From an uncultured bacterium (GTDB lineage: Bacteria > Chloroflexota > Anaerolineae > J036 > Brachytrichaceae): a stretch of DNA of 32,128 nucleotides. Both the position numbers and the translations under genes were made by a program. Where the stretch lies: NCBI GenBank assembly GCA_903921365.1, contig CAIXPS010000287.1, positions 1 to 32,128 on the forward strand, given 5' to 3'. The notes beneath the pieces are model-generated. The model did no database searches. It had not been told where the DNA came from and saw only the letters and a list, made by a program, of their open reading frames with translations. Positions 3,913 to 32,128 of this stretch are shown here, piece by piece. Positions within the stretch are counted from its first letter, which is position 1. Each line of letters begins with the position of its first letter.

Positions 3913-3992
3913 AAGTATGAAGTATGAATTATGAAGCATGAAGCATGAAGCATGAAGTGTGGTTTCATACTCCATACTTCATAGCTCATAAT
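3913..3992. repeat. Tandem ATGAAGC heptamer array folding into an inverted repeat
   Basis: The gap between the second ABC gene and the MFS gene is filled with tandem TATGAAG/ATGAAGC-type heptamers (about 3914-3957). Reverse-complement versions follow (TTCATACTCCATACTTCATA, about 3964-3983). The two halves can pair into an AT-rich hairpin just before the MFS ribosome-binding site. It contains no gene. It may be a simple expanding repeat, or it may affect readthrough from the ABC operon into the MFS gene; only the sequence structure is certain. Confidence 0.7.
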
Positions 3993-4017: not shown

Positions 4018-5658
4018 ATGGTGCAACAGGCAAGCCGGCAGGGAATGCCAGCCGACAATTACAAGTGGAAAGTGCTCGCAACGGTCATGATCGGCACGGT
4101 GATGGTCATTCTGGACTCGACCGTGGTCAATGTCGCGTTTCGCACGCTCCAACGGGAGTTTGGCGGAAGTCTGTCTGACTCGCAGTGGGTGCTGAGTATT
4201 TATGTGCTGGCATTGGGAATCACCACGCCGATCTCAGGGTATCTGGGGGACCGTTTTGGCATTAAGCGCGTTTATCTGGCGGGTCTCGGCCTGTTTGCGG
4301 TCGGTTCGTTGCTGTGCGGTTTATCGCCATCATTGGGAGTGCTCATCCTGATGCGCGCGTTGCAGGGAATCGGCGGCGGAATGGCGCAGCCGCTTGGCCC
4401 GGCGATGATCTATCGCAACTTCCCGCCAAAAGAGCAGGGGTTTGCGCTTGGCATTTTCGGAATCGCGCTCGTAGTCGCGCCGGCACTTGGCCCTATTCTT
4501 GGCGGTTTGCTGGTGGATGCGGGTCTGTGGCGATTCATCTTCTTCATCAATATTCCGATAGGCATAGGCGCTGTGACGATGGGAATACGGTTCCTGCGCG
4601 AAAGTCGCTCCGATCATCGGCCTAAGCTCGATATTCCAGGCGTCCTCCTGTCCGCGATTGGCTTCGGTTCGATCCTGTATGCGGCGACGAATGCGGAGAC
4701 CTATGGCTGGACGGCGCCAGTCACACTGCTTACACTGGGCATCGGCGTTGTGGGCGTCATCGCGTTTGCGATTGTCGAATTATGGGTGGCAAAGGAGCCT
4801 CTGCTGGATCTGCGCCTGTTCAAGAATCCGGTGTTCCTGAATGCTCAGTTTATCGGCTATGTATCGGTGCTTGCCTTGTTCGGCGCTGAGTTCCTGCTGC
4901 CTCTCTACCTGCAGTTGTTGCGCGGTCGAACGGCATTGGAGACAGGCATTGTATTGCTCTCCCTGGCGGGCGCGTCAGCGATTACGACGCCGCTGGCCGG
5001 GCGGCTTTATGACAAAATCGGCCCGCGCGCCATTGTGTCAATTGGATTTGCGCTTCTGGTTGTGAATACGTGGCAACTGGCAAGCCTCCAGGCGGATACG
5101 CCGTTCATCACAATCGTCATCCTGCTGGCCTTACGAGGCCTGGCCTTTGGCCTGACGGTGCAATCGACGTTCGTCACCGCGCTTGGCACGGTTCCGCTTC
5201 CGCTGCTGCCGCGCGGGTCATCGCTAGTGAACTCAACGCGCTTTGTGGTTCAGGCAATTGCCGTGGCGCTTCTCGCCACAGTGCTGGCGGGTTGGCTTTC
5301 ACCCCAGGTACAGGCCTACCAGGATCAGGCGCAACAGGACACCTCCGCAGACTTGAGCAACGTCCGATTCGGGCTGTGTGAAACACCGGGAGTAACCGCG
5401 GAGAACAACTTCCCCCCAGGCGCCCTGGCGCAGATCAACACTTTGGCAGCAGATAAACAGGATGCCGCAAAGCAACAGATCCACACGGTTGTCACAGCCG
5501 CCTGCCAGGAATACATCAAGGGGTTCGAGTCCGCCTACACACTGACATTTGTGTTCGCGATCCTGTCATTGATCCTGAGCCTGTTTCTACCGGGTTGGCC
5601 GGGGAAGTGGTCCGGGCGCGGCGCATATCGCAGCAGCACACCTGCCGGAGGACATTAG
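4018..5658 (+). CDS. DHA2-family MFS drug efflux transporter (14 helices)
   Basis: An EmrB/QacA-type (DHA2) proton-driven exporter of 546 aa with 14 predicted membrane helices. Helix 1 carries LDSTVVNVA, the helix 2-3 loop has motif A-like GDRFGIKR, and helix 5 has a glycine/proline-rich motif (GPILGGLL). The last large loop (about residues 430-505) is long and hydrophilic and contains two Cys that could form a disulphide outside the cell. ATG 4018 is preferred over the upstream TTG at 4009 because GGAGGAG (4002-4008) sits at proper spacing from it. It follows two ABC exporter genes, so the block looks like an efflux cluster. Substrate not predictable. Confidence 0.92.
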   Translation: MVQQASRQGMPADNYKWKVLATVMIGTVMVILDSTVVNVAFRTLQREFGGSLSDSQWVLSIYVLALGITTPISGYLGDRFGIKRVYLAGLGLFAVGSLLCGLSPSLGVLILMRALQGIGGGMAQPLGPAMIYRNFPPKEQGFALGIFGIALVVAPALGPILGGLLVDAGLWRFIFFINIPIGIGAVTMGIRFLRESRSDHRPKLDIPGVLLSAIGFGSILYAATNAETYGWTAPVTLLTLGIGVVGVIAFAIVELWVAKEPLLDLRLFKNPVFLNAQFIGYVSVLALFGAEFLLPLYLQLLRGRTALETGIVLLSLAGASAITTPLAGRLYDKIGPRAIVSIGFALLVVNTWQLASLQADTPFITIVILLALRGLAFGLTVQSTFVTALGTVPLPLLPRGSSLVNSTRFVVQAIAVALLATVLAGWLSPQVQAYQDQAQQDTSADLSNVRFGLCETPGVTAENNFPPGALAQINTLAADKQDAAKQQIHTVVTAACQEYIKGFESAYTLTFVFAILSLILSLFLPGWPGKWSGRGAYRSSTPAGGH

Positions 5659-5680
5659 AGCACTTTTTGAAATGCTCTAA
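5655..5680. terminator. Shared hairpin at convergent gene ends
   Basis: An inverted repeat, TTAGAGCA (5655-5662) and TGCTCTAA (5673-5680), lies exactly over the stop codons of the plus-strand MFS gene (TAG 5656-5658) and the minus-strand dioxygenase gene (TAG at 5679-5677). The loop contains a T-run on one strand. It is placed to end both transcripts, though its GC content is low for a strong intrinsic terminator. Confidence 0.5.
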
Positions 5681-6579
5681 ACCGGTCGTCGCCAGTAATC
5701 ACGATGCAGGTAGCGATAAGTCGGCAACTCCTCACCTGGCGCAAGGTGCACAGTATCAAATGGCGCAGGCGGATTGTAAGTGAAAGGCTGCTCATTCTGA
5801 GGAACGTAGCTGGCCAGATGACGCCATTCGAGACATTTCAATAACAGTTTTTGCTTCAGTGGGATGTACAAGGGGACATGCGGGCCGATGCGTTCCTCGA
5901 TATGGGCGGCGCGAAACTCATAGTAGATCACGCGCCGCAGCTTGCCTGTCGATGCAGGCGACCCATGCAGCACGAGGATATCGTGAAAAATCAGGTCGCC
6001 GGGTTGCATGGGAACTGGGATCGCACCAGCGGTATGAAAGCCATCACGGTTCAACCTTTCGATCTCGATCTGCGCGCGTTCGGCGTCCCATTTGTGGCTG
6101 CCGGGGATAACCCATAGACAGGTATCCAGTGTGGCTTCATCCAGATAGAAGTCGACATTGAAAATGGGCTGGTCGCCAACGAACTCGACACCAGCATCGC
6201 GATGCCACGGGACAATGATGCCTTCACCCGGCGCTTTCAACACCATCGCATCCCAGGTGGGGAAAAAGTCCTGTCCCATCAGTTTCTCAACTGAACGCAA
6301 GACGAATGGGTTGGCCAGCAAAACCTTGCACTCGCGACGTTTATCGATGATGAATTCTACCCGTCTCAAAACTGGATTTCCACTCAGATGACCAATTCCA
6401 TACATGAAGTCCGGGTCATCTTGCGGCCTGGATGCAGCTTCTCGGATGAGGTCCGAAGTTGCAGCCTGCACCTGTTGAAGTTCTGGTTCCTCCAGCGCCC
6501 CCTTAATGACCAAAAAACCGTTCTCGTGATAAGACCGCACATCGTCATCGCTGATTACAAAAAACTGCGAATTCTTCAT
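5677..6579 (-). CDS. Phytanoyl-CoA dioxygenase (PhyH) family protein
   Basis: A predicted Fe(II)/2-oxoglutarate-dependent oxygenase of 300 aa. The iron-binding facial triad is visible: H126 and D128 in PWHRD, and the distal H205 in VLHGS, followed by a basic KLRR stretch suited to binding 2-oxoglutarate. WVIPGSH before the distal His is typical of the PhyH family. The Met at 6579 is preferred; a 10-residue upstream extension is possible but begins with a non-conserved Cys-containing segment. The substrate cannot be assigned, since bacterial PhyH proteins hydroxylate many small molecules. It lies just downstream of the eutBC fusion on the same strand, separated by a repeat element, so a shared transcript is possible but unproven. 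It needs oxygen, unlike the glycyl radical enzyme further along. Confidence 0.88.
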   Translation of the reverse strand: MKNSQFFVISDDDVRSYHENGFLVIKGALEEPELQQVQAATSDLIREAASRPQDDPDFMYGIGHLSGNPVLRRVEFIIDKRRECKVLLANPFVLRSVEKLMGQDFFPTWDAMVLKAPGEGIIVPWHRDAGVEFVGDQPIFNVDFYLDEATLDTCLWVIPGSHKWDAERAQIEIERLNRDGFHTAGAIPVPMQPGDLIFHDILVLHGSPASTGKLRRVIYYEFRAAHIEERIGPHVPLYIPLKQKLLLKCLEWRHLASYVPQNEQPFTYNPPAPFDTVHLAPGEELPTYRYLHRDYWRRPV

Positions 6580-6630
6580 ACATTTACAACCCCACGAGAA
6601 ATAATACACCAGGCGCAGTTCGCGTTTCGC

Positions 6631-6721
6631 GTGACGATATCGGCGGGGCGTGCAGACCTACGGCATTGCCATGTCGTTCTCGATAAACATGGTTTTGATG
6701 GGCAATGCGTCGCCCCTACAC
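6631..6721. repeat. Dispersed inverted-repeat element, half copy
   Basis: This 91-base segment starts GTGACGATATCGGCGGGGCG and ends GCGTCGCCCCTACAC. It matches the right half of the element at 12362-12601 (12495-12576), with the first 20 bases identical. Internally GGCATTGCC and GGGCAATGC can pair. Its end overlaps the last codons of the eutBC fusion: the stop codon TAG is part of the element's terminal TGTAGGGGCGA (read on the minus strand). It looks like a non-autonomous, MITE-like or REP-like repeat; no transposase is encoded. Confidence 0.7.
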
Positions 6722-8881
6722 TGAGGAGAGATTGTTCCCCGGTTCGTCCTTCAGCGCCACCCCTGACAATTGCAACGCGACTGCTCTCTGCATCATCCGC
6801 ACCAGGGTTTCCGCAGCCTGTGCGTCACTCAGCCCTTGTGTTCGGATGTTCGAAATGCAGTTGCGCGATTCGTCCGTGAGGCCTGGCCTGGGCAGATAGG
6901 TCATGTAGATGCCCATACTGTCCGGCGCACTCAATCCGGGCCGCTCGCCAATCAGTATCGCTATGACGGGCGCGCGCAGAATGCTGCCGATCTCGTCGCT
7001 GATCGCGACCCGGCCCTGCGACACAATCGTCACCGGCGCAATGCGCCAACCCGCCTGGCAAAGCGCGTCGCGCGCCAATAGCAGTATGGGCAGCGCATGC
7101 TGCTGCACTGCCGACGCCGAGAGCCCATCTGCGATCACAAAAGCCGCATCGAATTCCCGTACGTCGGCGCCGGCGCCTGCGGCCGTGAGCGTCGCGCGCG
7201 AAGCATCGCTCAACCTGCGACCCAGGTCGGGGCGGAGCAAATACTCCTGCCGGTTCGGGGACGCGCTATGCAGTATCAGCGTGTCGAAACCTTGCGCGCG
7301 CAGGTCTGCCTCGAGACGTGGCGCATCCAGCTCGGACAGCACTGCATCCCGCGCGGTTGCATGCGCTGCTTGAAAATCAAGCTGGTCCGTCGTTGGCAGG
7401 CTGTTGCCTACGCGACCCAGGCCAATGCGGGCAGTGGTGAACCGGCTGAGCCGGCGCCACCCTTCAGTGTTGATGAGGCCATTTTCGGGCAGTGTAGAAA
7501 CTGCCTGCGTTGAGGTTGAGATTGAGATGGAGGTTGAGGTTGAGGTTGATCCCGACCAGGAGATGGCGTCAATGCCCATCCGGGTCAGCCACGCCTCAAA
7601 CTCCGGCGCGGGTCGCAGCTCCAGAACGTTGCGCGCATAGAGCGCATCATGGAATGATGTGCTCTGGTAATTCAACATGATGTCGTCGGCTCCCGGCACG
7701 CCCATGACGTAGGCACAGCCCGCCGCAGCGAGTAACGTAAGCAGCGCGTCCATGTCGTCCTGGTCAGCCTCGGCGTGGTTGGTGTAGCAAACATCGCAGC
7801 CCATTGGCAGCCCCATCAGTTTGCCACAGAAGTGATCCTCTAATCCAGCCCGGATGATCTGCTTGCCGTTGTAGAGGTATTCCGGGCCGATAAAACCGAC
7901 GACAGTGTTCACCAGCAAGGGCTTGAAGTGACGGGCTACGGCATAGGCGCGCGCCTCGCATGTCTGCTGATCCAGACCGGCATGGGCGTTTGCTGAAAGC
8001 GCGCTGCCCTGACCGGTTTCAAAGTACATGACGTGATCACCCACCGTGCCGCGATGCAATGCGAGCGCTGCCTGCCGCGCTTCCTCCAGCAGCGACAGGG
8101 ATACACCGAAACTGGAATTGGTTTTCTGTGTGCCCCCAATCGACTGAAACACCAGATCCACCGGCGCACCGAGATGCATGGCCGCGAGAGTGGTTGTGAC
8201 GTGCGCCAGGACACATGTCTGGGTTGGGATGTCATACTGAGCGCGCAACGCGTCCATCATCTCCAGCAGGGTCACAACATTATCGAGGCGGTCGGTGGCG
8301 GGATTTATGCCGATGACCGCATCGCCGCTGCCATACAGTAGCCCATTCATGATGCTGGCTGCCACGCCGCGCGGGTCGTCTGTGGGGTGATTGGGTTGCA
8401 GCCGGGTGGACAACCGGCCTTCCAGCCCCAGCGTATTGCGGAAGCGCGTGACGACGCGGCACTTGCGCGCTACGGTGATCAGGTCCTGGAGTCGCATCAG
8501 CTTCGAGACGGCTGCAGCCATCTCTGGCGTCACGCCAGGCGCAAGTCGCGCCAGGGAAGTGGCATCGGCTTGCGGCGACAACAGCCAGTCCCGGAATCCA
8601 CCCACGGTGAGATGACTCACCAGAGCGTATGCGTAAGCGTCATGCGTGTCCATGATCAGCCGCGTCACATCGTCGGCTTCGTAGGGAATGACGGCTTCAT
8701 TCAGGAACGTTGACAGAGGCAGGTCGGCAAGCGCATACTGAGCCGCAGCGCGCTCATGGGCGCTTGATGCAGCTACGCCAGCAAGTCTGTCGCCGGAGCG
8801 ATCGGGCGTCGCGCGCGCCAGTAACGCGCGCAAATCCGGGAAGGTGTAACGGATACCGCCGAGAGTGTGGTTGAAAGTCAT
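6716..8881 (-). CDS. Ethanolamine ammonia-lyase, EutB-EutC fusion
   Basis: One 721-aa chain carries both subunits of adenosylcobalamin-dependent ethanolamine ammonia-lyase, which converts ethanolamine to acetaldehyde and ammonia. Residues 1-437 are EutB: R160 and Q162 (TRLQPNHP), N193 (GINPATD), E288 (FETGQG) and D363 (GCDVCYTNHA) match the known substrate-contact residues. Residues about 462-715 are EutC, ending with TYLPRPG, NCISNIR and LSGVALKD. The two are joined by a Ser/Thr linker (residues 443-458) encoded by a hexanucleotide repeat. ATG 8881 fits the normal EutB N-terminus; an ATG at 8917 would add 12 residues, and neither has a clear ribosome-binding site. No eutA reactivase, microcompartment or aldehyde dehydrogenase gene is nearby. 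The stop codon lies inside a dispersed repeat. Confidence 0.93.
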   Translation of the reverse strand: MTFNHTLGGIRYTFPDLRALLARATPDRSGDRLAGVAASSAHERAAAQYALADLPLSTFLNEAVIPYEADDVTRLIMDTHDAYAYALVSHLTVGGFRDWLLSPQADATSLARLAPGVTPEMAAAVSKLMRLQDLITVARKCRVVTRFRNTLGLEGRLSTRLQPNHPTDDPRGVAASIMNGLLYGSGDAVIGINPATDRLDNVVTLLEMMDALRAQYDIPTQTCVLAHVTTTLAAMHLGAPVDLVFQSIGGTQKTNSSFGVSLSLLEEARQAALALHRGTVGDHVMYFETGQGSALSANAHAGLDQQTCEARAYAVARHFKPLLVNTVVGFIGPEYLYNGKQIIRAGLEDHFCGKLMGLPMGCDVCYTNHAEADQDDMDALLTLLAAAGCAYVMGVPGADDIMLNYQSTSFHDALYARNVLELRPAPEFEAWLTRMGIDAISWSGSTSTSTSISISTSTQAVSTLPENGLINTEGWRRLSRFTTARIGLGRVGNSLPTTDQLDFQAAHATARDAVLSELDAPRLEADLRAQGFDTLILHSASPNRQEYLLRPDLGRRLSDASRATLTAAGAGADVREFDAAFVIADGLSASAVQQHALPILLLARDALCQAGWRIAPVTIVSQGRVAISDEIGSILRAPVIAILIGERPGLSAPDSMGIYMTYLPRPGLTDESRNCISNIRTQGLSDAQAAETLVRMMQRAVALQLSGVALKDEPGNNLSSV
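7509..7550 (-). repeat. Hexanucleotide repeat coding the EutB-EutC linker
   Basis: Seven consecutive GTTGAG-like hexamers (plus strand; two are ATTGAG and ATGGAG variants) encode an alternating Ser-Thr/Ser-Ile stretch on the minus strand. The hexamer length keeps the frame whatever the copy number, so linker length could vary by slippage without breaking the protein. Confidence 0.85.
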
Positions 8882-8968
8882 CGTGCTCGTGAAGTCGTTT
8901 TTTAATCCTCGCGTCATCTTGAGGATCGATACTGTACTCTAAGGATATGCATGAGTTTTCATCTTTCG

Positions 8969-9124: not shown

Positions 9125-12100
9125 ATGGGTAAGAGTCACGTCCGCGCCGCCCTCACACGACGGCTTGCAGTTCCACTGGCTGTCATACTGGCTGTGCCGA
9201 TGCTATCGTCGCAAGCCATAGCATTCGCTGGCAGCCCATCCGCAAATAGTGCGCAAAGTGATGTCAGCCAGACATCCAGTGCGTCGGCGGTTAGCGTTTC
9301 TAATTGTGCCGCCATTATCACTGTGACCAGCATAGCTGATAGCGGCGTTGGAACACTGCGACAAGCGTTGAACGACGTTTGCGCCAGTGGGACCGTCAGC
9401 TTCGATCCAGCGCTGACCACCAACGGTTTGACGACGATCACCTTGAGCAGCGGCCCGTTAGCCGTTGCGCAGAATGTGACCCTCGCCGGGCCGGGCCAGT
9501 TCCTGTTAGCCGTGAGCGGCAACAACCGCTTCACAGTGTTTTCCATTCATAACGGTGTAACAGCGTCGATTTCCGGAATGACAATTCGCGATGGGAATGC
9601 CTACACTGGCAACGGTGGAGGAATCCTTAACGCCGGCGCACTGACGGTGTCCAGTAGTTCGATTTTTGGCAACGCCGCAACGTTTGGCGGCGGTGTATTC
9701 AATACGACTGGCAGCAGCTTGACACTGCTGAATGATACTGTCGCCCTGAATATCGCGAGCGCGGCCGGCGGAGGCATATATAGCTCCGGAAACCCGACGA
9801 CGATCCTCAATAGCACTGTCAGCAACAACACCGGCGCTGATATTGGCGGCATTGCAAACAAGTTTGGGCAGCTAATTGTGTCAAACAGCACCGTTGCCAA
9901 TAATGTCGGCAGCACGACCGGCGGCATTGTCACAAACCAGGGTCTGTTTACAGCGACTCAAACCACAATCACAAATAACAGCGGTGGCGCGGTGTATCAG
10001 TATGGCGGCGCCGCCTATTACTACAACACGATTATCGCTGGCAACACTCCAGGCACTGACTGTATCGTTGCCGGTGGTGGCATGATCGGCGCAATTGACA
10101 GGACCCTGATCCAGGATGGTTCGTGTAACGCGCCACTTTCCGGAGATCCGAAACTCGGGATACTGCAAAATAATGGCGGAAGCACATGGACGAATGCCTT
10201 GCTGCCAGGTTCTCCAGCTATTGATACGGCAAACGCCGCATACTGCACAGCGACCGACGAACGCGGGATCAGTCGACCCCAGGGCCCGGCATGTGACATT
10301 GGCGCATTTGAGGTCGCGAACTACTTTACCATCACGCCGTCGGCTGGCGCTAATGGTGGACTATGGCCCAACACACCGCAGTATGTTCAAAGCGGTGGGA
10401 GCGTTGTGTTTGGGATCACGCCAAATTCCGGCTATTACATTTCCAATGTCACGGTGGATGGTAATTCAGTAGGATCGGTGAGTCAGTACACGTTCAATAA
10501 CGTTACTGGCAATCACACGATTAATGCGCAATTTTCTAACAGCACCTTTACCATTTCGCCGGCAGCGTATGCAAATGGCAGTATCTGGCCAAACACAAAC
10601 CAAACCGTCAACTATGGCGGCAGCACAGGATTTTCGATCACGCCAAATGCGGGTTACTTTATATCGAACGTCTACATTGATGGCGCCCCGGTGGGCGGCG
10701 TCAGTCAATACACATTCAACAATGTGACCGGCAATCACACAATCGTGGCGGTGTTCTCCTCAATCGCCACCTTTACACTGAGCCCCTCTGCCGGCGCGAA
10801 CGGCGCCATTTCGCCGAACACAAATCAAACCGTCAACTACGGCGGCAACCAGACGTTTTCGATCACGCCAAACACGGGTTACTACATCTCCGATGTGCGC
10901 GTAGACGGTAATTCAGTGGGTGCAGTCAGTTCATACACGTTCTCAAATGTGACATCGAATCACACGATCATAGCATCGTTTGCGCTCAGCCCCAGCACTT
11001 ATGTTCTAACGCCGTACACGGGTGCGTATGGCAGCATCACGCCGAACACGCCGCAGACTGTTAACGCAGGCGGCAGCCAGGCATTCACCATTTCGCCATA
11101 CACGGGGTTCCACATTGCCGATGTCGGCGTGGACGGCGTCTCGGTGGGCGCGGTGAGCACATACTCGTTTACCAATGTGACGGCAAGTCATACGATTACT
11201 GCGTCCTTCGCGGTTAATCTCAATTCCTATATCCTGACGCCTTCGTCCGGGCCAAATGGCAGCATCACGCCGAACACACCGCAAGGGGTCGTCAGTGGCG
11301 GAAGTCTGCGATTCAACATCACACCGGATACGGGCTATACGATTTCTGATGTTGGCGTTGACGGCGCCTCAGTTGGCGCGGTGAGCACATACTCGTTTAC
11401 CAATGTGACGGCAAATCACGCAATCACAGCGTCATTCGCAATCAGTGTCGTCAATTATGTATTGACGCCGATTGCCAGCGCCAATGGCAGCTTTGACCTG
11501 GGCACGCCGCAGAAGGTCAAGGCCGGCGCCACCAAAGTATTTACAATTAAGCCAAATACAGGCTACACCATTCAGGATGTGCGTGTTGACGGCGTTTCGG
11601 TGGGTGCGGTAAATGCCTACACGTTTGCCAAAGTCAACGCCAACCACGTCATAACGGCGGCCTTCGCAAGCGCCATCGCCATTACGGTTGTCGTGACACC
11701 GACAATCGCACCGCATATCATTATCACCAAAACAGTTGCAAAGGAAATCGTCGGCACACCTGTCCCGATGCCGACAATCGCACCGCATATCATTACACCT
11801 GTCCCGATGCCGACTGTGGCGCCGCCAAGCATCGTCACGCCAACGGTAGCACCAGTTGCAACGGTAGCACCAGTTGCAACGGTTGTACCAGTTGTAACGG
11901 TTGCAACGGATACCCCTTTGGATATTGCAGGTAAAGTCAGCACCTATACGTTTGTCGTGACGCCGCTGGCCGGACCAAACGGCAGCATCTCGCCGAACAA
12001 GTCACAGACGGTTAACAAAGGTGCGAGCCAGGAGTTTACGATCAAGCCAGACGCGGGCTACACCATCCAGGATGTGCTTGTGGACGGCGTCTCAGTGGGT

Positions 12101-14419: not shown

Positions 14420-16684
14420 TCACTCGGTCAGTATTCGGTCCACCACCAGTTGCCGGAAGTCCGGCGAAAGGCTGGCAAAGTAAGCGCTGAATCCCGTGAC
14501 GCGCACAACCAGATCCGGGTACTTGCTGGGATCTTTGTGCGCTTCCAGAACCTGTTCGGCGTCCATGATGTTCAGATTGATCTGTGTGCCGCCCAGGTTG
14601 AAGTGAGCGCGGATCAGGTCTGCAACATGCTCGACGCCGCCCTCATCTTTCGTGATGCCGGGGTCGAGTTCCATCTGCATGGGCGCGGTGTTGCCGTAGC
14701 CAGACTGAACACGGGCAATGGCTACCGCCATGGCTGTTGGCGCGCCATCTTTGCGGTACCCAGGGTCGGGATTGGCGCCATGTGAGATCGGTTCGCCCGC
14801 CCGGCGGCCATTGGGGGTCGCACCGAGTTCTTTGCCCATGGGAATGGTGTTTGCCCACGAGAACAGCCCCGGAATCATGTTGAAACCGGCGGGGGTTGGC
14901 TTCTCCTTCACCAGAAGGGTGAACACCGCGCTGAGCTTCTCAGCCCAGGAATCGGCGGGAGAGGCGCCGCTGCCATAGCGCGGTATGCCTTTCATCATCA
15001 GGCGCGCCCGCTCGCCCTCTGGGCCTGCCCAGTTGGATGCCATGTGGCCTGCAATCTGCTGCCACGTCAGCCGGTGCTCTTTGTCGATGCGCTGTTCAAG
15101 CGCGGCGAACGAATCCGCCACGGTCGCCAACGCTGAACCGTCGACGCACAGGTTATAGAACTCGACGCCGCCGTGGGATGCATCCAGCCCTTTTTCGATG
15201 GGGCCGTAACACAGCAGATCGAGGAACAACTCGGGGAACACCTGGTGAAAGTTCTCCATGTGGTAGTCGAGTCCTTTCGCGATGGCAGCCACCGCCAGGC
15301 GAAGATGGCTCTCATACAGGCGATATAAAGCAGCCGCGCTCGGCGCAATTTGAGTGTCGCCCATCATCTCGTGGAAAGCAACTTCAAATACTTTGCCAAA
15401 ATTGATCTTGACGCAGTCGTTGAGCGTGTACTCACGACCAGGGATTGCAGACCAGTGACAGCCTGAGTATGCGCGCAGACGGGCGATCTCAACAGGGTAT
15501 CCATTCTTCATGAACCCTTCAGTTGTCCGGTCGATGCCGAGGAACTTGGGGGTGCCGCACTTGTCCTCAAACATGATCTCGACGCCGCGGCGCAGCAGTT
15601 CAGGGTCGCTGTTGTCGCCGACGCAGATGCCGATATTGGCCGGTATCTTCAAGCCATGCGCGGCTTCAAGGATGAGATACGAGAGATGCGTCGTTGTGTC
15701 AGCGCCGGAAGCGTTGGGACCGCCGAGTTGGATATAGTCCGTGTTTCGCACCAGGAAGCAGGCAGAATGGAAGATTGCTTCGTCATCGTCGAGAATGCCC
15801 AGCGCCATGTCGCGATCGTAATAGGGCTGCAACAGGACATCCATCCGCCCCAATGCCCCGTTCCCGTTGAACATGCGGGCAGCCATCTGGTACCAGTTCA
15901 TCCACTGGCAGGCCTCACGGAATGTGGAGGGCGGCTCAGTGACCAGGCGATGGTTGATGTCAGCCAATGCCTCAAGGTTCTCGCGCAACTGAGGATTTCG
16001 CTCCGCCTGGCACATTGCCTGCGCCTGATCAGCAGTGCGCATGATCCAGTTTTGCATGCCGAGCACAATGGCCTCAAGACCCGCGTAAAAGTCCATTTTC
16101 TGGCCGAGCAGTTTGGCGTCTGTCTCATTTGTCTGATGCCACTCGCGATACGCGTGAATCTTGCGCAAGAGACCGCCCCAACCCAGCTTGAACCCGATCT
16201 CCAGGTCGTGGCAGAAGTGCTGCGACGCCCCGATGCCGCTGCCCAGACCATACTTTTTCTGATCCTCATGCAGGAATGAGAAATCCAGGTCGGGATTCCA
16301 GCTTGGCTTGCGGTACGACATGAAGTTGGCCATATACCCGCCCGCAAGCGAGCTGATGGGATCGATGTAGATCGGGTGCATTTCCAGCAAGGCGCGATAA
16401 TTTTCCCCGACCGCCTTCGGCCCGAAGAAACCGCCGCTGGGGTGATTGCTTGCCACATTAAAGCCGGCAATCAGGGCGTCCGTAATCGGCATCCCCGAAC
16501 CGCTTATTGTTTGAACGATCTCGCGACGATCGGCGGGTGGCAAGATCAAGCCCCAGTCGTCATGGTTCATGGAACCGATGATGTCCTGCTTCTCTTTTGT
16601 AATGCGCATCTTGGTTGCCCGTAGCGCTTCGATTCTCTGCTGATAGCTTAGTTCCTGAAACTCCGTAACGGAAATGCCGGTCAT
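14420..16684 (-). CDS. Glycyl radical enzyme of unassigned function
   Basis: A 754-aa member of the pyruvate formate-lyase/diol dehydratase superfamily. The radical glycine is G731 in RVTGFSAYF near the C-terminus, and the active-site cysteine is C409 in SGCHWSA. Other family marks are STFREACQ (253-260), GRMDVLLQPYYDRD (279-292) and PNGRRAGEP (624-632). In pyruvate formate-lyase the cysteine is paired (Cys-Cys), and in diol and choline-type lyases it is followed by Val-Glu (GCVE). Here it is followed by His-Trp, so neither activity should be assumed. The start is supported by AGGAGC. It is co-transcribed with its activase 11 bases upstream and lies among sugar-oxidising genes, so a carbohydrate-derived substrate is possible. 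Oxygen-sensitive once activated. Confidence 0.9.
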   Translation of the reverse strand: MTGISVTEFQELSYQQRIEALRATKMRITKEKQDIIGSMNHDDWGLILPPADRREIVQTISGSGMPITDALIAGFNVASNHPSGGFFGPKAVGENYRALLEMHPIYIDPISSLAGGYMANFMSYRKPSWNPDLDFSFLHEDQKKYGLGSGIGASQHFCHDLEIGFKLGWGGLLRKIHAYREWHQTNETDAKLLGQKMDFYAGLEAIVLGMQNWIMRTADQAQAMCQAERNPQLRENLEALADINHRLVTEPPSTFREACQWMNWYQMAARMFNGNGALGRMDVLLQPYYDRDMALGILDDDEAIFHSACFLVRNTDYIQLGGPNASGADTTTHLSYLILEAAHGLKIPANIGICVGDNSDPELLRRGVEIMFEDKCGTPKFLGIDRTTEGFMKNGYPVEIARLRAYSGCHWSAIPGREYTLNDCVKINFGKVFEVAFHEMMGDTQIAPSAAALYRLYESHLRLAVAAIAKGLDYHMENFHQVFPELFLDLLCYGPIEKGLDASHGGVEFYNLCVDGSALATVADSFAALEQRIDKEHRLTWQQIAGHMASNWAGPEGERARLMMKGIPRYGSGASPADSWAEKLSAVFTLLVKEKPTPAGFNMIPGLFSWANTIPMGKELGATPNGRRAGEPISHGANPDPGYRKDGAPTAMAVAIARVQSGYGNTAPMQMELDPGITKDEGGVEHVADLIRAHFNLGGTQINLNIMDAEQVLEAHKDPSKYPDLVVRVTGFSAYFASLSPDFRQLVVDRILTE

Positions 16685-16695
16685 GTGTGCTCCTT

Positions 16696-17628
16696 TTAGC
16701 GTGAACGCGTTTCGACTGCAAACGAGCGGGCAGCCTCCGTAAGCGCCTGCATATGTTCTCTGGTGGGGGTAATCAAGTCGCGCGCGCGATAGTCCATATC
16801 GAGGCTGCGGTACTTGTCGCCGGCGAGGCGATGGAATGGCAGCAGTTCGAGCGAAATCGTGTGCTCGCCGTCGCCGCCGGCCTGGTTGCGCACCTCAATC
16901 AATTCGCGCACGAACGCAGCGATTGCGGCGACTTCCTCAACCGTGTCATTGACGGTGGGGATCACGGGGATTCGGAAGATGATCGGTTGCTCCATGGCCG
17001 CGAATTTGCGAGCTGCCGCCAGGATGCGTTCGTTTGGCGCGCCAGTAGCCCAACGATGCTTGGCCGAGTCCATGTGCTTGATGTCCATCATGATCAGATC
17101 CGTCACGGGCATCATGCGGGCTTCGTCTTCCCAGCGGACATTGCCGCATGTCTCAATCGCCGTGTGCAGCCCCTCGGCTTTACAGCGGCTGAGCAACTCG
17201 TATGTGAAGTCGGGTTGCAGCACCGGTTCGCCGCCAGACAGGGTCACGCCACCGTTGGACGTTTCATAAAAAGCGCGATCCTGAAGTACTTCACTGACGA
17301 CGTCATCGACGCTCATGTACTTGCCCGTAAGCACGCGAGCCCCGGCGTAACAGGTGTCGACGCATTCGCCGCAGACGACGCACTTCTCACGGTCATAAAC
17401 GCGCACACCGTCCACCTTGATGGCTGCGCCGTGCTGACAGGCCTTGATACATTCATCGCACCCAATACAGCGATCGGGAAAGAACTGGATATCGGGCTTT
17501 GGCCGCATCCCCTCCGGGTTATGACACCAGAAGCAGCGCAACGAACAGCCCTTTAGGAACACTGTCGTGCGAATGCCAGGGCCATCGTGGATCGAAAAGC
17601 GCTGTATGCTGAAAACCACACCTTCCAT
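16696..17628 (-). CDS. Glycyl radical enzyme activase (radical SAM)
   Basis: The activating enzyme for the adjacent glycyl radical enzyme, 310 aa. The radical SAM motif is CSLRCFWC (Cys28, 32, 35), which binds the 4Fe-4S cluster that cleaves S-adenosylmethionine. Two ferredoxin-like four-cysteine motifs follow (CIGCDECIKAC and CVVCGECVDTC), as in activases of the dehydratase and decarboxylase type rather than the short PFL activase. SGGEP and KHMDSAKH are further family marks. It would abstract hydrogen from G731 of the partner. GGAGAA lies 9 bases before the ATG, and the partner gene begins 11 bases after its stop, so they form an operon. Confidence 0.94.
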   Translation of the reverse strand: MEGVVFSIQRFSIHDGPGIRTTVFLKGCSLRCFWCHNPEGMRPKPDIQFFPDRCIGCDECIKACQHGAAIKVDGVRVYDREKCVVCGECVDTCYAGARVLTGKYMSVDDVVSEVLQDRAFYETSNGGVTLSGGEPVLQPDFTYELLSRCKAEGLHTAIETCGNVRWEDEARMMPVTDLIMMDIKHMDSAKHRWATGAPNERILAAARKFAAMEQPIIFRIPVIPTVNDTVEEVAAIAAFVRELIEVRNQAGGDGEHTISLELLPFHRLAGDKYRSLDMDYRARDLITPTREHMQALTEAARSFAVETRSR

Positions 17629-21653: not shown

Positions 21654-23207
21654 ATGGCAGAAATTTTCTACAAGCCAACTGGCGCCTGGGCAGCCGACTT
21701 TATCCCGTTTTACAAAGACGGCAGATTTCGTTTGTTCTACCTGCAGGACTGGCGAAACATTCCTGAACATGGTGAAGGCACGCCGTGGTATCAGATCAGC
21801 ACGGATGATCTGGTTCACTTTGAAGAGCATGGTGAAATGCTTGCGCGCGGGACTAAAGACGAACAGGATCTATATGTGTTCACCGGATCGGTTATCGAGG
21901 AGTTGGGGCAGTCCCAAGGGCGCTTGGCGTCAAAGCAATCCCATGGGGACTCAAAGCAGTCCCATAGGGATTCCAAGCAATACCACATCTTCTATACCGG
22001 CCACAACCCCTACTTTCGGGCTCAAGGCAAACCCGAACAGGGCGTCATGCACGCTGTCAGCGACGATTTGCTGACCTGGCGCAAGATACCAGAGGATACT
22101 TTCTACGCGCCGCAGGCGCTTGGCGTCCAAGCAGTCGCGTATGAAATGCACGATTGGCGCGATCCGTTTGTATTCTGGAACCCGGACGCAGGGGAATACT
22201 GGATGCTGCTGGCGGCGCGCTCGAAGTCTGGCCCATCCAGGCGCAGAGGATGCACCGCCTTATGCGCTTCGCGCGATCTGAAACACTGGGAAGTAAGGGA
22301 CCCCCTGTATGCGCCCGGGCTGTATTACACGCACGAGTGCCCGGACTTATTCAAAATGGGGGAGTGGTGGTATCTCGTATTCTCTGAATTCAGTGAGCGT
22401 CTCGTGACCCGCTACCGAATGGCGCGCAGTCTGTCAGGGCCATGGCTGACGCCGCCGGATGATCAGTTCGACGGTCGCGCCTTCTATGCTGCCAAGACCA
22501 CGTCAGACGGATCAAGGCGCTATCTGTTCGGCTGGAACCCAACACGTGAGGGAAACAAGGACTACGGATCGTGGCACTGGGGCGGCAACCTCGTCGTTCA
22601 TGAGATCAACCAACGCCCGGATGGAACGCTCTCGGTGTGCGTTCCTGAGGCGGTGGATCGCGCATTTGGCATACCTACACCTGCAACGCTCCAGCCTGGG
22701 CTTGGAACCTGCACGGCCACTTCGAATGGAATTCGCTTGGATGGGACTGGAACCTTCGCTTGCGCGGTCGGCTCTGTCATGCCAGAGCAATGCAGGATCG
22801 ACGCCGAGATCGTAGTATCGGACGCAGCCCGATTCGCAGGCATCATGCTGCGGGTCAGTGACGACCTTGAGAAGGCATACTACATCCGCATCGAGCCGTC
22901 ACGCAACCGGCTCGTATTTGATATGTGGCCGCGACCCGGCGATGTCCCATTCATGCCTGAACTCGAACGACCGCTGGTTGCTTTGACGCCAAGCGCCCGT
23001 GGGACTGCTTTGAGTCCCGATCAAGCTGTCCTACCCGGACACCATGCTTACAAGTTGCAGGTTTACGTTGAAGGCACTGTGTGCGTGGTATATGTTAATG
23101 GCGAAGTCGCGATGAGCACGCGGCTCTACAACCTCCCGCAGGGTAAATGGGGCGTGTTTGTCGAAGACGGCGTTGCTGAGTTTCACCATGTGCAACACAC
23201 AATGTGA
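21654..23207 (+). CDS. GH32-like glycoside hydrolase with in-frame repeat insertions
   Basis: A 517-aa five-bladed beta-propeller glycosidase with a C-terminal beta-sandwich. The three GH32-type acidic motifs are visible: D15 in WAADFIPFY (nucleophile position), the DWRDPFVFW motif (about 167-175) and HECPDLF (about 225-231, acid/base Glu). Family members act on beta-fructosides and related sugars, but this branch is divergent. No signal peptide, so cytoplasmic. Two dispersed repeats are inserted in frame: residues 87-109, splitting what reads as VIEELGQ|YHIFYTGHN, and about 443-458 in a loop of the beta-sandwich. A possible decayed third lies at 22115-22136. GGAG lies 8 bases before ATG 21654. 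First gene of a four-gene overlapping operon. Confidence 0.85.
   Translation: MAEIFYKPTGAWAADFIPFYKDGRFRLFYLQDWRNIPEHGEGTPWYQISTDDLVHFEEHGEMLARGTKDEQDLYVFTGSVIEELGQSQGRLASKQSHGDSKQSHRDSKQYHIFYTGHNPYFRAQGKPEQGVMHAVSDDLLTWRKIPEDTFYAPQALGVQAVAYEMHDWRDPFVFWNPDAGEYWMLLAARSKSGPSRRRGCTALCASRDLKHWEVRDPLYAPGLYYTHECPDLFKMGEWWYLVFSEFSERLVTRYRMARSLSGPWLTPPDDQFDGRAFYAAKTTSDGSRRYLFGWNPTREGNKDYGSWHWGGNLVVHEINQRPDGTLSVCVPEAVDRAFGIPTPATLQPGLGTCTATSNGIRLDGTGTFACAVGSVMPEQCRIDAEIVVSDAARFAGIMLRVSDDLEKAYYIRIEPSRNRLVFDMWPRPGDVPFMPELERPLVALTPSARGTALSPDQAVLPGHHAYKLQVYVEGTVCVVYVNGEVAMSTRLYNLPQGKWGVFVEDGVAEFHHVQHTM
21912..21980 (-). repeat. In-frame palindromic dispersed repeat, 27+21+21 array, copy 2
   Basis: Exactly 69 bases (23 codons) made of one 27-base unit and two 21-base units head to tail, on the strand opposite to the gene. 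In the gene it is read as SQGRLASKQ, SHGDSKQ and SHRDSKQ. Removing it leaves VIEELGQYHIFYTGHNP, an uninterrupted beta-strand junction of the propeller, so the boundaries are unusually clear. Confidence 0.9.
22115..22136 (-). repeat. Possible decayed dispersed repeat unit, copy 3
   Basis: GGCGCTTGGCGTCCAAGC followed by AGTC matches the core of the 27-base unit with one substitution, in the same orientation as copy 2. It is read as ALGVQAV, just before the conserved HDWRDPF motif. The match is short and could be native sequence, so this call is tentative. Confidence 0.4.
22980..23027 (+). repeat. In-frame palindromic dispersed repeat, 27+21 array, copy 4
   Basis: A full 27-base unit (22980-23006, starting GCTTTGACGCCAAGC, ending CGTGGGACT) is followed by a 21-base unit whose second half has decayed (23007-23027). 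It has the opposite orientation to copy 2 in the same gene and is read in a different peptide register as ALTPSARGT and ALSPDQA. It lies between PELERPLV and VLPGHHAYKL, a surface loop of the C-terminal beta-sandwich. Confidence 0.88.
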
Positions 23208-31829: not shown

Positions 31830-32128
31830 ATGGCGGCAAAAACTGCTTTGAGTCCCCATGGGATTGCTTTGAATCCCAGTGGGGCTGCTTTGAGTCCCCA
31901 TGGGGCGGATTTAGTGACTGAACGCGCTACGCGGGCGCGCCGGTATGTGGAGGCATCCAAATCGGAGAACACGCGCCGCTCGTACGAGTCGCACATGAAC
32001 GATTTCAAGGCGTTTTGCGCTGAACGCGGCTACGCTGCGCTCCCTGCCCTTCCCGCTGCTGTCGTGGACTACCTTACCTTCCTGGCAGATATCGGCGCGA
32101 AGTTTTCAACCATTCAGGTAAAGGCGTC
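31830..32128 (+). CDS. Probable tyrosine recombinase, N-terminal part (cut by window edge)
   Basis: An open frame running off the window (99 codons visible). After the repeat-encoded N-terminus it reads RYVEASKSENTRRSYESHMN, then FKAFCAERGYAALPALPAAVVDYLTFLA. This is the pattern of the SAM-like core-binding domain of phage-type integrases: a helix with N-T-R-R-Y, then FxxFC and a helix with VVxYLxxLA. The catalytic domain would lie beyond the window. The only ATG that fits is 31830, with GGAG at 31816-31819; there is no other start after the in-frame stop at 31770. Residues 5-26 are entirely encoded by three 21-base dispersed repeat units. Confidence 0.78.
   Translation, partial: MAAKTALSPHGIALNPSGAALSPHGADLVTERATRARRYVEASKSENTRRSYESHMNDFKAFCAERGYAALPALPAAVVDYLTFLADIGAKFSTIQVKA
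31845..31907 (+). repeat. In-frame palindromic dispersed repeat, three 21-base units, copy 8
   Basis: Three consecutive 21-base units (31845-31865, 31866-31886, 31887-31907), each starting GCTTTGA and containing CCC...TGGG, form the N-terminal peptide TALSPHGIALNPSGAALSPHGA-type segment of the recombinase. A more decayed unit, GCTTGGAGTACC, lies just upstream at 31812-31832 and includes the ribosome-binding site and the start codon. AGTCCCCATGGGG in the third unit is nearly a perfect palindrome. Confidence 0.88.

Follow-up and report, generated by a model that had tools for sequence, protein, structure and literature searches.

Fused eutB and eutC genes in an uncultured Chloroflexota bacterium predicted to encode a single-chain ethanolamine ammonia-lyase

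We analyzed a 32,128-nt stretch of DNA (contig CAIXPS010000287.1 of assembly GCA_903921365.1; hereafter, the window) from an uncultured bacterium of the family Brachytrichaceae (Chloroflexota, Anaerolineae), in which one minus-strand reading frame matches both subunits of ethanolamine ammonia-lyase. The features of the locus are as follows:

6716-8881, minus strand: fused eutB-eutC open reading frame of 721 aa, a single uninterrupted frame across both domains, with a start matching that of a relative (L107)
7571-8848, minus strand: EutB domain (PF06751; Pfam)
6749-7465, minus strand: EutC domain (PF05985; Pfam)
7466-7567, minus strand: 34-residue linker, lacking the C-terminal tail typical of EutB as well as the start codon and head of EutC, with low pLDDT in the structural model
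7509-7549, minus strand: ~7 imperfect hexamers encoding Ser-Thr/Ser-Ile pairs (GTTGAG on the plus strand, mostly TCAACC on the coding strand)
5677-6609, minus strand: PhyH-type dioxygenase gene, on the same strand and 106 bases downstream of the fused gene

The frame as listed spans 6716-8917 on the minus strand, and the ATG at 8881 was preferred as the start because it aligned with the start of the relative's protein (MSYAHTLGG). Both domains are complete, with EutB occupying residues 24-449 (PF06751, 721 bits) and EutC residues 485-723 (PF05985, 292.8 bits; both in P0001 numbering), and the chain passed the NCBIfam models for EutB (NF011649; 706.7 vs. a cut-off of 554) and EutC (NF003971; 303.6 vs. 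a cut-off of 230). Two separate chains are the usual form of EutBC, and that form is absent from the window, where there is one open frame. Separate chains do not define the activity, however, and the one-frame form is a variant inside the ethanolamine ammonia-lyase family, not outside it. An earlier, sequence-only reading of this DNA had placed EutB and EutC in one chain; the single frame, the two complete domains and a second fused copy in the genus establish that this is a true fusion.

That second copy came from a survey of five genomes of the genus, two of which carried the gene, fused in both; since the other three had no match, the gene is dispensable. The relative's gene (L107, on contig 217 of G004) encodes a 708-residue fused chain with ~81% identity to that of the window over the chain, and its linker, AAPQPESATAPPAQTPAETGLISV, is hexamer-free. 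When compared with separate genes, both copies were missing the EutB tail (~20-25 residues) as well as the EutC initiator and head. These observations bear on whether two genes were joined artificially, by an assembly or base-calling error that lost a stop or frameshift within the linker. The assembly comprises 603 contigs, of which the window is one; repeats are error-prone, and most relatives have two genes. However, the second genome carries the same fusion via a different, non-repetitive linker, and since the EutB tail and the EutC start and head are missing from both copies, a single base error would not suffice. We consider such an error extremely unlikely; a missed stop or frameshift, which the sequence-only reading had named as its own refutation, is likewise made unlikely by the independent fused copy.

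Comparison of the two fused genes by the Nei-Gojobori method gave dN/dS values of 0.048 for EutB and 0.151 for EutC, which are rough because dS (1.7 and 1.1, respectively) is near saturation, and a linker value of 0.45 that carries little weight given its few alignable codons. Both halves of the fused gene are under purifying selection. The substrate ligands of E. coli EutB, which we take to be R160, Q162, N193, E287, F329 and D362, are identical at all six positions in the window (R172, Q174, N205, E300, F342 and D375), so that the assertion that the main EutB substrate residues are kept held for all six. E. coli position 257 is Glu and becomes Ser in the window, but this change is uninformative since Ala occupies the position in the Listeria chain (2qez). 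The gene stands by itself among neighbors that include no eut-locus transporter or dehydrogenase, and its EutC is less conserved than its EutB, as might be expected if fusion marked a decaying gene that had lost ethanolamine activity or one recruited to a new substrate. Against this, both halves are under strong purifying selection and the substrate residues are identical, and we regard it as quite unlikely.

AlphaFold2 modeled the fused chain with a mean pLDDT of 86.7 and a pTM of 0.66. Most EutB and EutC blocks scored >90, while linker blocks scored 35-60, and values <50 occurred at residues 445-470 (the linker), 398-407 and 485-491. Since pTM was only 0.66, the model does not establish how the EutB and EutC parts are arranged. 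In Foldseek searches, the EutB part matched 3abo_A with a TM-score of 0.92 of the target at 51% identity, and the EutC part matched 3abo_D and other EutC chains at 0.75 of the target. We estimate that a linker of 24-34 residues, fully extended, would reach ~80-115 Angstrom. An adenosyltransferase gene is present in the window's genome. Translation might also begin internally and yield free EutC, at an in-frame ATG at position 7579 (the end of the EutB domain) that lies just before the linker and is common to the window and its relative. This codon lies within a conserved EutB stretch, however, and no well-placed ribosome-binding site was seen by eye; hence, a separate EutC product seems very improbable.

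From the last matched EutB residue to the first EutC residue, the linker reads AISWSGSTSTSTSISISTSTQAVSTLPENGLINT. Tandem Repeats Finder (TRF) reported the hexamer array at 7509-7549 (41 bases of the linker) with a period of 6, 6.8 copies, 88% matches and a score of 61, the codons being mostly TCA ACC. The sequence-only reading had counted seven hexamers, able to expand or contract without a frameshift, and this count agrees with the TRF result, allowing for imperfect copies. Arrays scoring at least 61 numbered six in the real window vs. one in all 30 dinucleotide shuffles combined, so the hexamer array is not a product of chance; nevertheless, arrays of this score are common in the window's DNA and that of the linker is not unique there. 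Other short tandem arrays in the window lie at 11841-11909 and 3913-3958; one has an 18-base unit and is located within the large choice-of-anchor Q gene, and the other is made up of heptamers and follows an ABC transporter gene. Across the genome, the doubled hexamer was found at three sites, two inside the linker and one elsewhere, a count equal to that of the reversed-pattern control, which rules out the hexamer as a genome-wide repeat.

Alignment with L107 placed a ten-residue gap in the relative, equivalent to five hexamers, opposite the hexamers of the window. Since the sister linker is shorter by these ten residues and hexamer-free, the array was probably gained or lost since the two lineages split; the gap would fit repeats gained on the window's side or lost on the relative's. 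This one relative is the extent of the comparison of linker repeat number that the sequence-only reading had proposed. That reading had also described the linker as prone to slippage that changes its length, which is possible but unproven and only suggested, as hexamers occur in one genome alone. A bolder version would make the linker a tunable tether, in which gain and loss of hexamers by replication slippage would make its length differ from strain to strain and tune assembly or activity. The ~seven in-frame hexamers and the ten-residue difference accord with such tuning. Against it, the copies are imperfect (88%), which would damp slippage; the sister has no hexamers; the comparison involves one relative and not a series of strains; and the doubled hexamer recurs at a single other genome site, no more than the reversed control. 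We consider a tunable tether unlikely, and quite improbable the broader proposal that the genus has a self-sufficient, single-chain, reactivase-free enzyme whose linker length is set by in-frame hexamer slippage, tuning assembly between strains.

Fused and separate forms were sought among relatives, as had been suggested beforehand, and the EutB-EutC fusion is rare, being present in two of the best 80 other loci and in the two genomes of the genus. The 80 loci were the best of at least 590 confirmed relatives and are thus a ranked rather than a random sample. The two fused loci come from a Burkholderiales MAG (L036) and the MAG of an unclassified bacterium (L037), and each is a single MAG contig that could be erroneous; among the other 78, EutC was in its own frame in 77 and one (L051) had no EutC in the stretch examined. 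Since many long tblastn matches among these loci cross in-frame stops, a match over both domains is not proof of fusion. Within the phylum, EutB was matched in 20 of 400 genomes, in 19 of them above the cut-off, and a frame of fusion length was found only in the window (740 vs. 458-497). At the level of the order, EutB was present in three of 28 genomes, two with the fused gene and the third (G009) with EutC as a separate frame. EutC matches occurred in 39 of the 396 genomes of the class (38 over the cut-off); among the 43 matches listed, 42 of them over the cut-off, a long frame was seen only in the two from the window's genus. Of the 38 genomes of the class with EutC, two therefore had the fusion, and both belong to this genus. 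Apart from these two, the highest-scoring EutC of the class (G669) proved to be encoded by two separate genes, as did the top plasmid record, the sole single-piece row among the 20 listed of 150 plasmid matches. No report of a natural EutB-EutC fusion was found in the literature; most subscription papers lay beyond the search, making this weak evidence of absence.

To place the fused genes, a tree was built from 80 of 101 eligible rows, 20 having been dropped by hand as likely near-duplicates and one because it had no EutC. The window grouped with L107 (support 100), L036 fell next to a row from Dactylopiibacterium (99), and L037 lay elsewhere on a long branch, so that the best tree requires three changes for fusion. 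Constraining all four fused rows together (p-AU 0.068), or the window, L107 and L036 (p-AU 0.135), was not rejected. Hence, the tree favors three origins of fusion, although a single origin is not statistically rejected. The window pair lies in a mixed set of 16 rows (98) containing same-phylum, Gemmatimonadota, Actinomycetota and alphaproteobacterial rows, with a Chloroflexi MAG (L077) nested among those of the same phylum, and the large, 74-row lineage that contains the window also takes in three Acinetobacter rows (L031, L039 and L041). G009, of the window's own family, belongs to the other EutB lineage and grouped with same-class rows. Its eutB frame (L108, 3247-5628, plus strand) stays open for ~360 codons upstream of the EutB domain, where there is no Pfam match; this extension is probably no more than open frame, the gene likely starting at 4324.

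The fused gene's surroundings differ between the two genomes. In the window, the downstream PhyH-type dioxygenase gene, which may be co-transcribed with it, weakly matches a methylphosphonate hydroxylase model, far below the cut-off, and a divergent gene upstream encodes a 1042-residue choice-of-anchor Q protein. The L107 copy sits between a GGDEF/PAS/GAF protein gene and convergent genes, and among its ten scanned neighbors we recognized neither an eut gene nor a PhyH-type gene, nor any equivalent of the genes that flank the fusion in the window. A cobalamin riboswitch was sought and rejected, since no Rfam family reached its gathering score in the window and the match upstream of the gene was at chance level, and a promoter-like site near the gene start was dismissed since it was on the wrong strand and such sites were no more numerous than by chance. 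Elsewhere in the window, a glycyl radical enzyme and its activase (14420-17628, minus strand) lie within a sugar/uronate gene neighborhood, the enzyme scoring far below every NCBIfam equivalog cut-off listed. A dispersed ~21-base repeat (GGGACTCAAAGCA[A/G]TCCCAT) has five occurrences with ≤3 mismatches, none being expected by chance, at 21925-21965 (plus), 22999-23018 (minus) and 31858-31898 (minus) in the window. Two tandem copies are inside a glycosyl hydrolase 32 frame, to which, by our reading of the translation, they add SKQSHGD-like residues; this suggests small repeats invading genes in the window's genome. Exact search found no copy in the 146 other loci examined.

The window's genome (96.86% complete) was also searched for the partners of classical ethanolamine utilization. 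It has no BMC shell protein (PF00936), no EutH and no member of the ethanolamine permease family. EutA, for which a genome-wide check had been advised, was not found: the two weak profile matches are FtsA- and MreB-like genes, judging from their sequences and the adjacent FtsQ/MreC-like genes. In E. coli, ethanolamine ammonia-lyase belongs to an eut operon with the EutA reactivase and a microcompartment. The claim that the fused gene stands alone is accurate as to reactivase, shell and eut transporter genes, and the reported lack of an aldehyde dehydrogenase gene nearby was borne out within the window, but such solitude is ordinary for the lineage. In A. baumannii, EutBC is reported to sustain growth on ethanolamine in the absence of a metabolosome, EutA and EutE (PMC9426561). 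Since that enzyme works without them, and Acinetobacter rows belong to the same lineage, the lack of a reactivase or shell is not peculiar to the fusion.

The fused chain most resembles the two-gene EutBC of Pseudomonas, Acinetobacter and relatives with short eut loci, in protein lineage, domain order and gene order; these differ in having separate chains from mostly adjacent genes, with no fusion in 78 of the 80 best loci. It shares the fold of both parts and the six substrate residues with the E. coli enzyme (3abo), which has two chains and a more distant sequence (51% identity in EutB). L036 and L037 likewise have one frame across EutB and EutC, but both keep EutB tail-like sequence, their joins are unrelated, and an amino-acid permease gene adjoins L036. 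IcmF, from another B12 enzyme family, joins a mutase to its own G-protein chaperone and not two subunits of an eliminase. It is nonetheless comparable as a natural single-chain B12 radical enzyme system.

Taken together, we favor, at a probability of roughly 0.8, a genuine single-chain, adenosylcobalamin-dependent ethanolamine ammonia-lyase encoded by fused eutB and eutC genes. The adenosyltransferase gene and the reported EutA-independent function of a related enzyme add to the case for it, while the modest pTM, the lack of an ethanolamine transporter family and the gene's absence from three of five genomes of the genus weigh against it. In an ancestor of the genus, two adjacent, reactivase-independent genes of the Pseudomonas/Acinetobacter type would have become one, with an in-frame, unstructured linker taking the place of the tail of EutB, the sequence between the genes and the start of EutC. 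We infer that the fused chain would form an assembly resembling the known complex, each unit pairing one EutB with one EutC and the cofactor lying between the two, and that it would convert ethanolamine to acetaldehyde and ammonia as a source of nitrogen or carbon, with no microcompartment involved. Its linker would serve as a passive tether, and the hexamers in the window's species would reflect expansion of an in-frame repeat within a tolerant spacer. The gene is thus a genuine and rare fusion of the two subunits of a known enzyme, probably active and with a tolerant linker. As such, it is a modest variation on a familiar enzyme, whose known chemistry is left unchanged. The absence of the EutB tail and EutC head suggests that both are dispensable. 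A single-chain form of a large, two-subunit B12 enzyme would fix the subunit ratio at 1:1 and provide a simple construct for biochemistry, and it would lend itself to a clean test of whether fusion of subunits accompanies reactivase loss.
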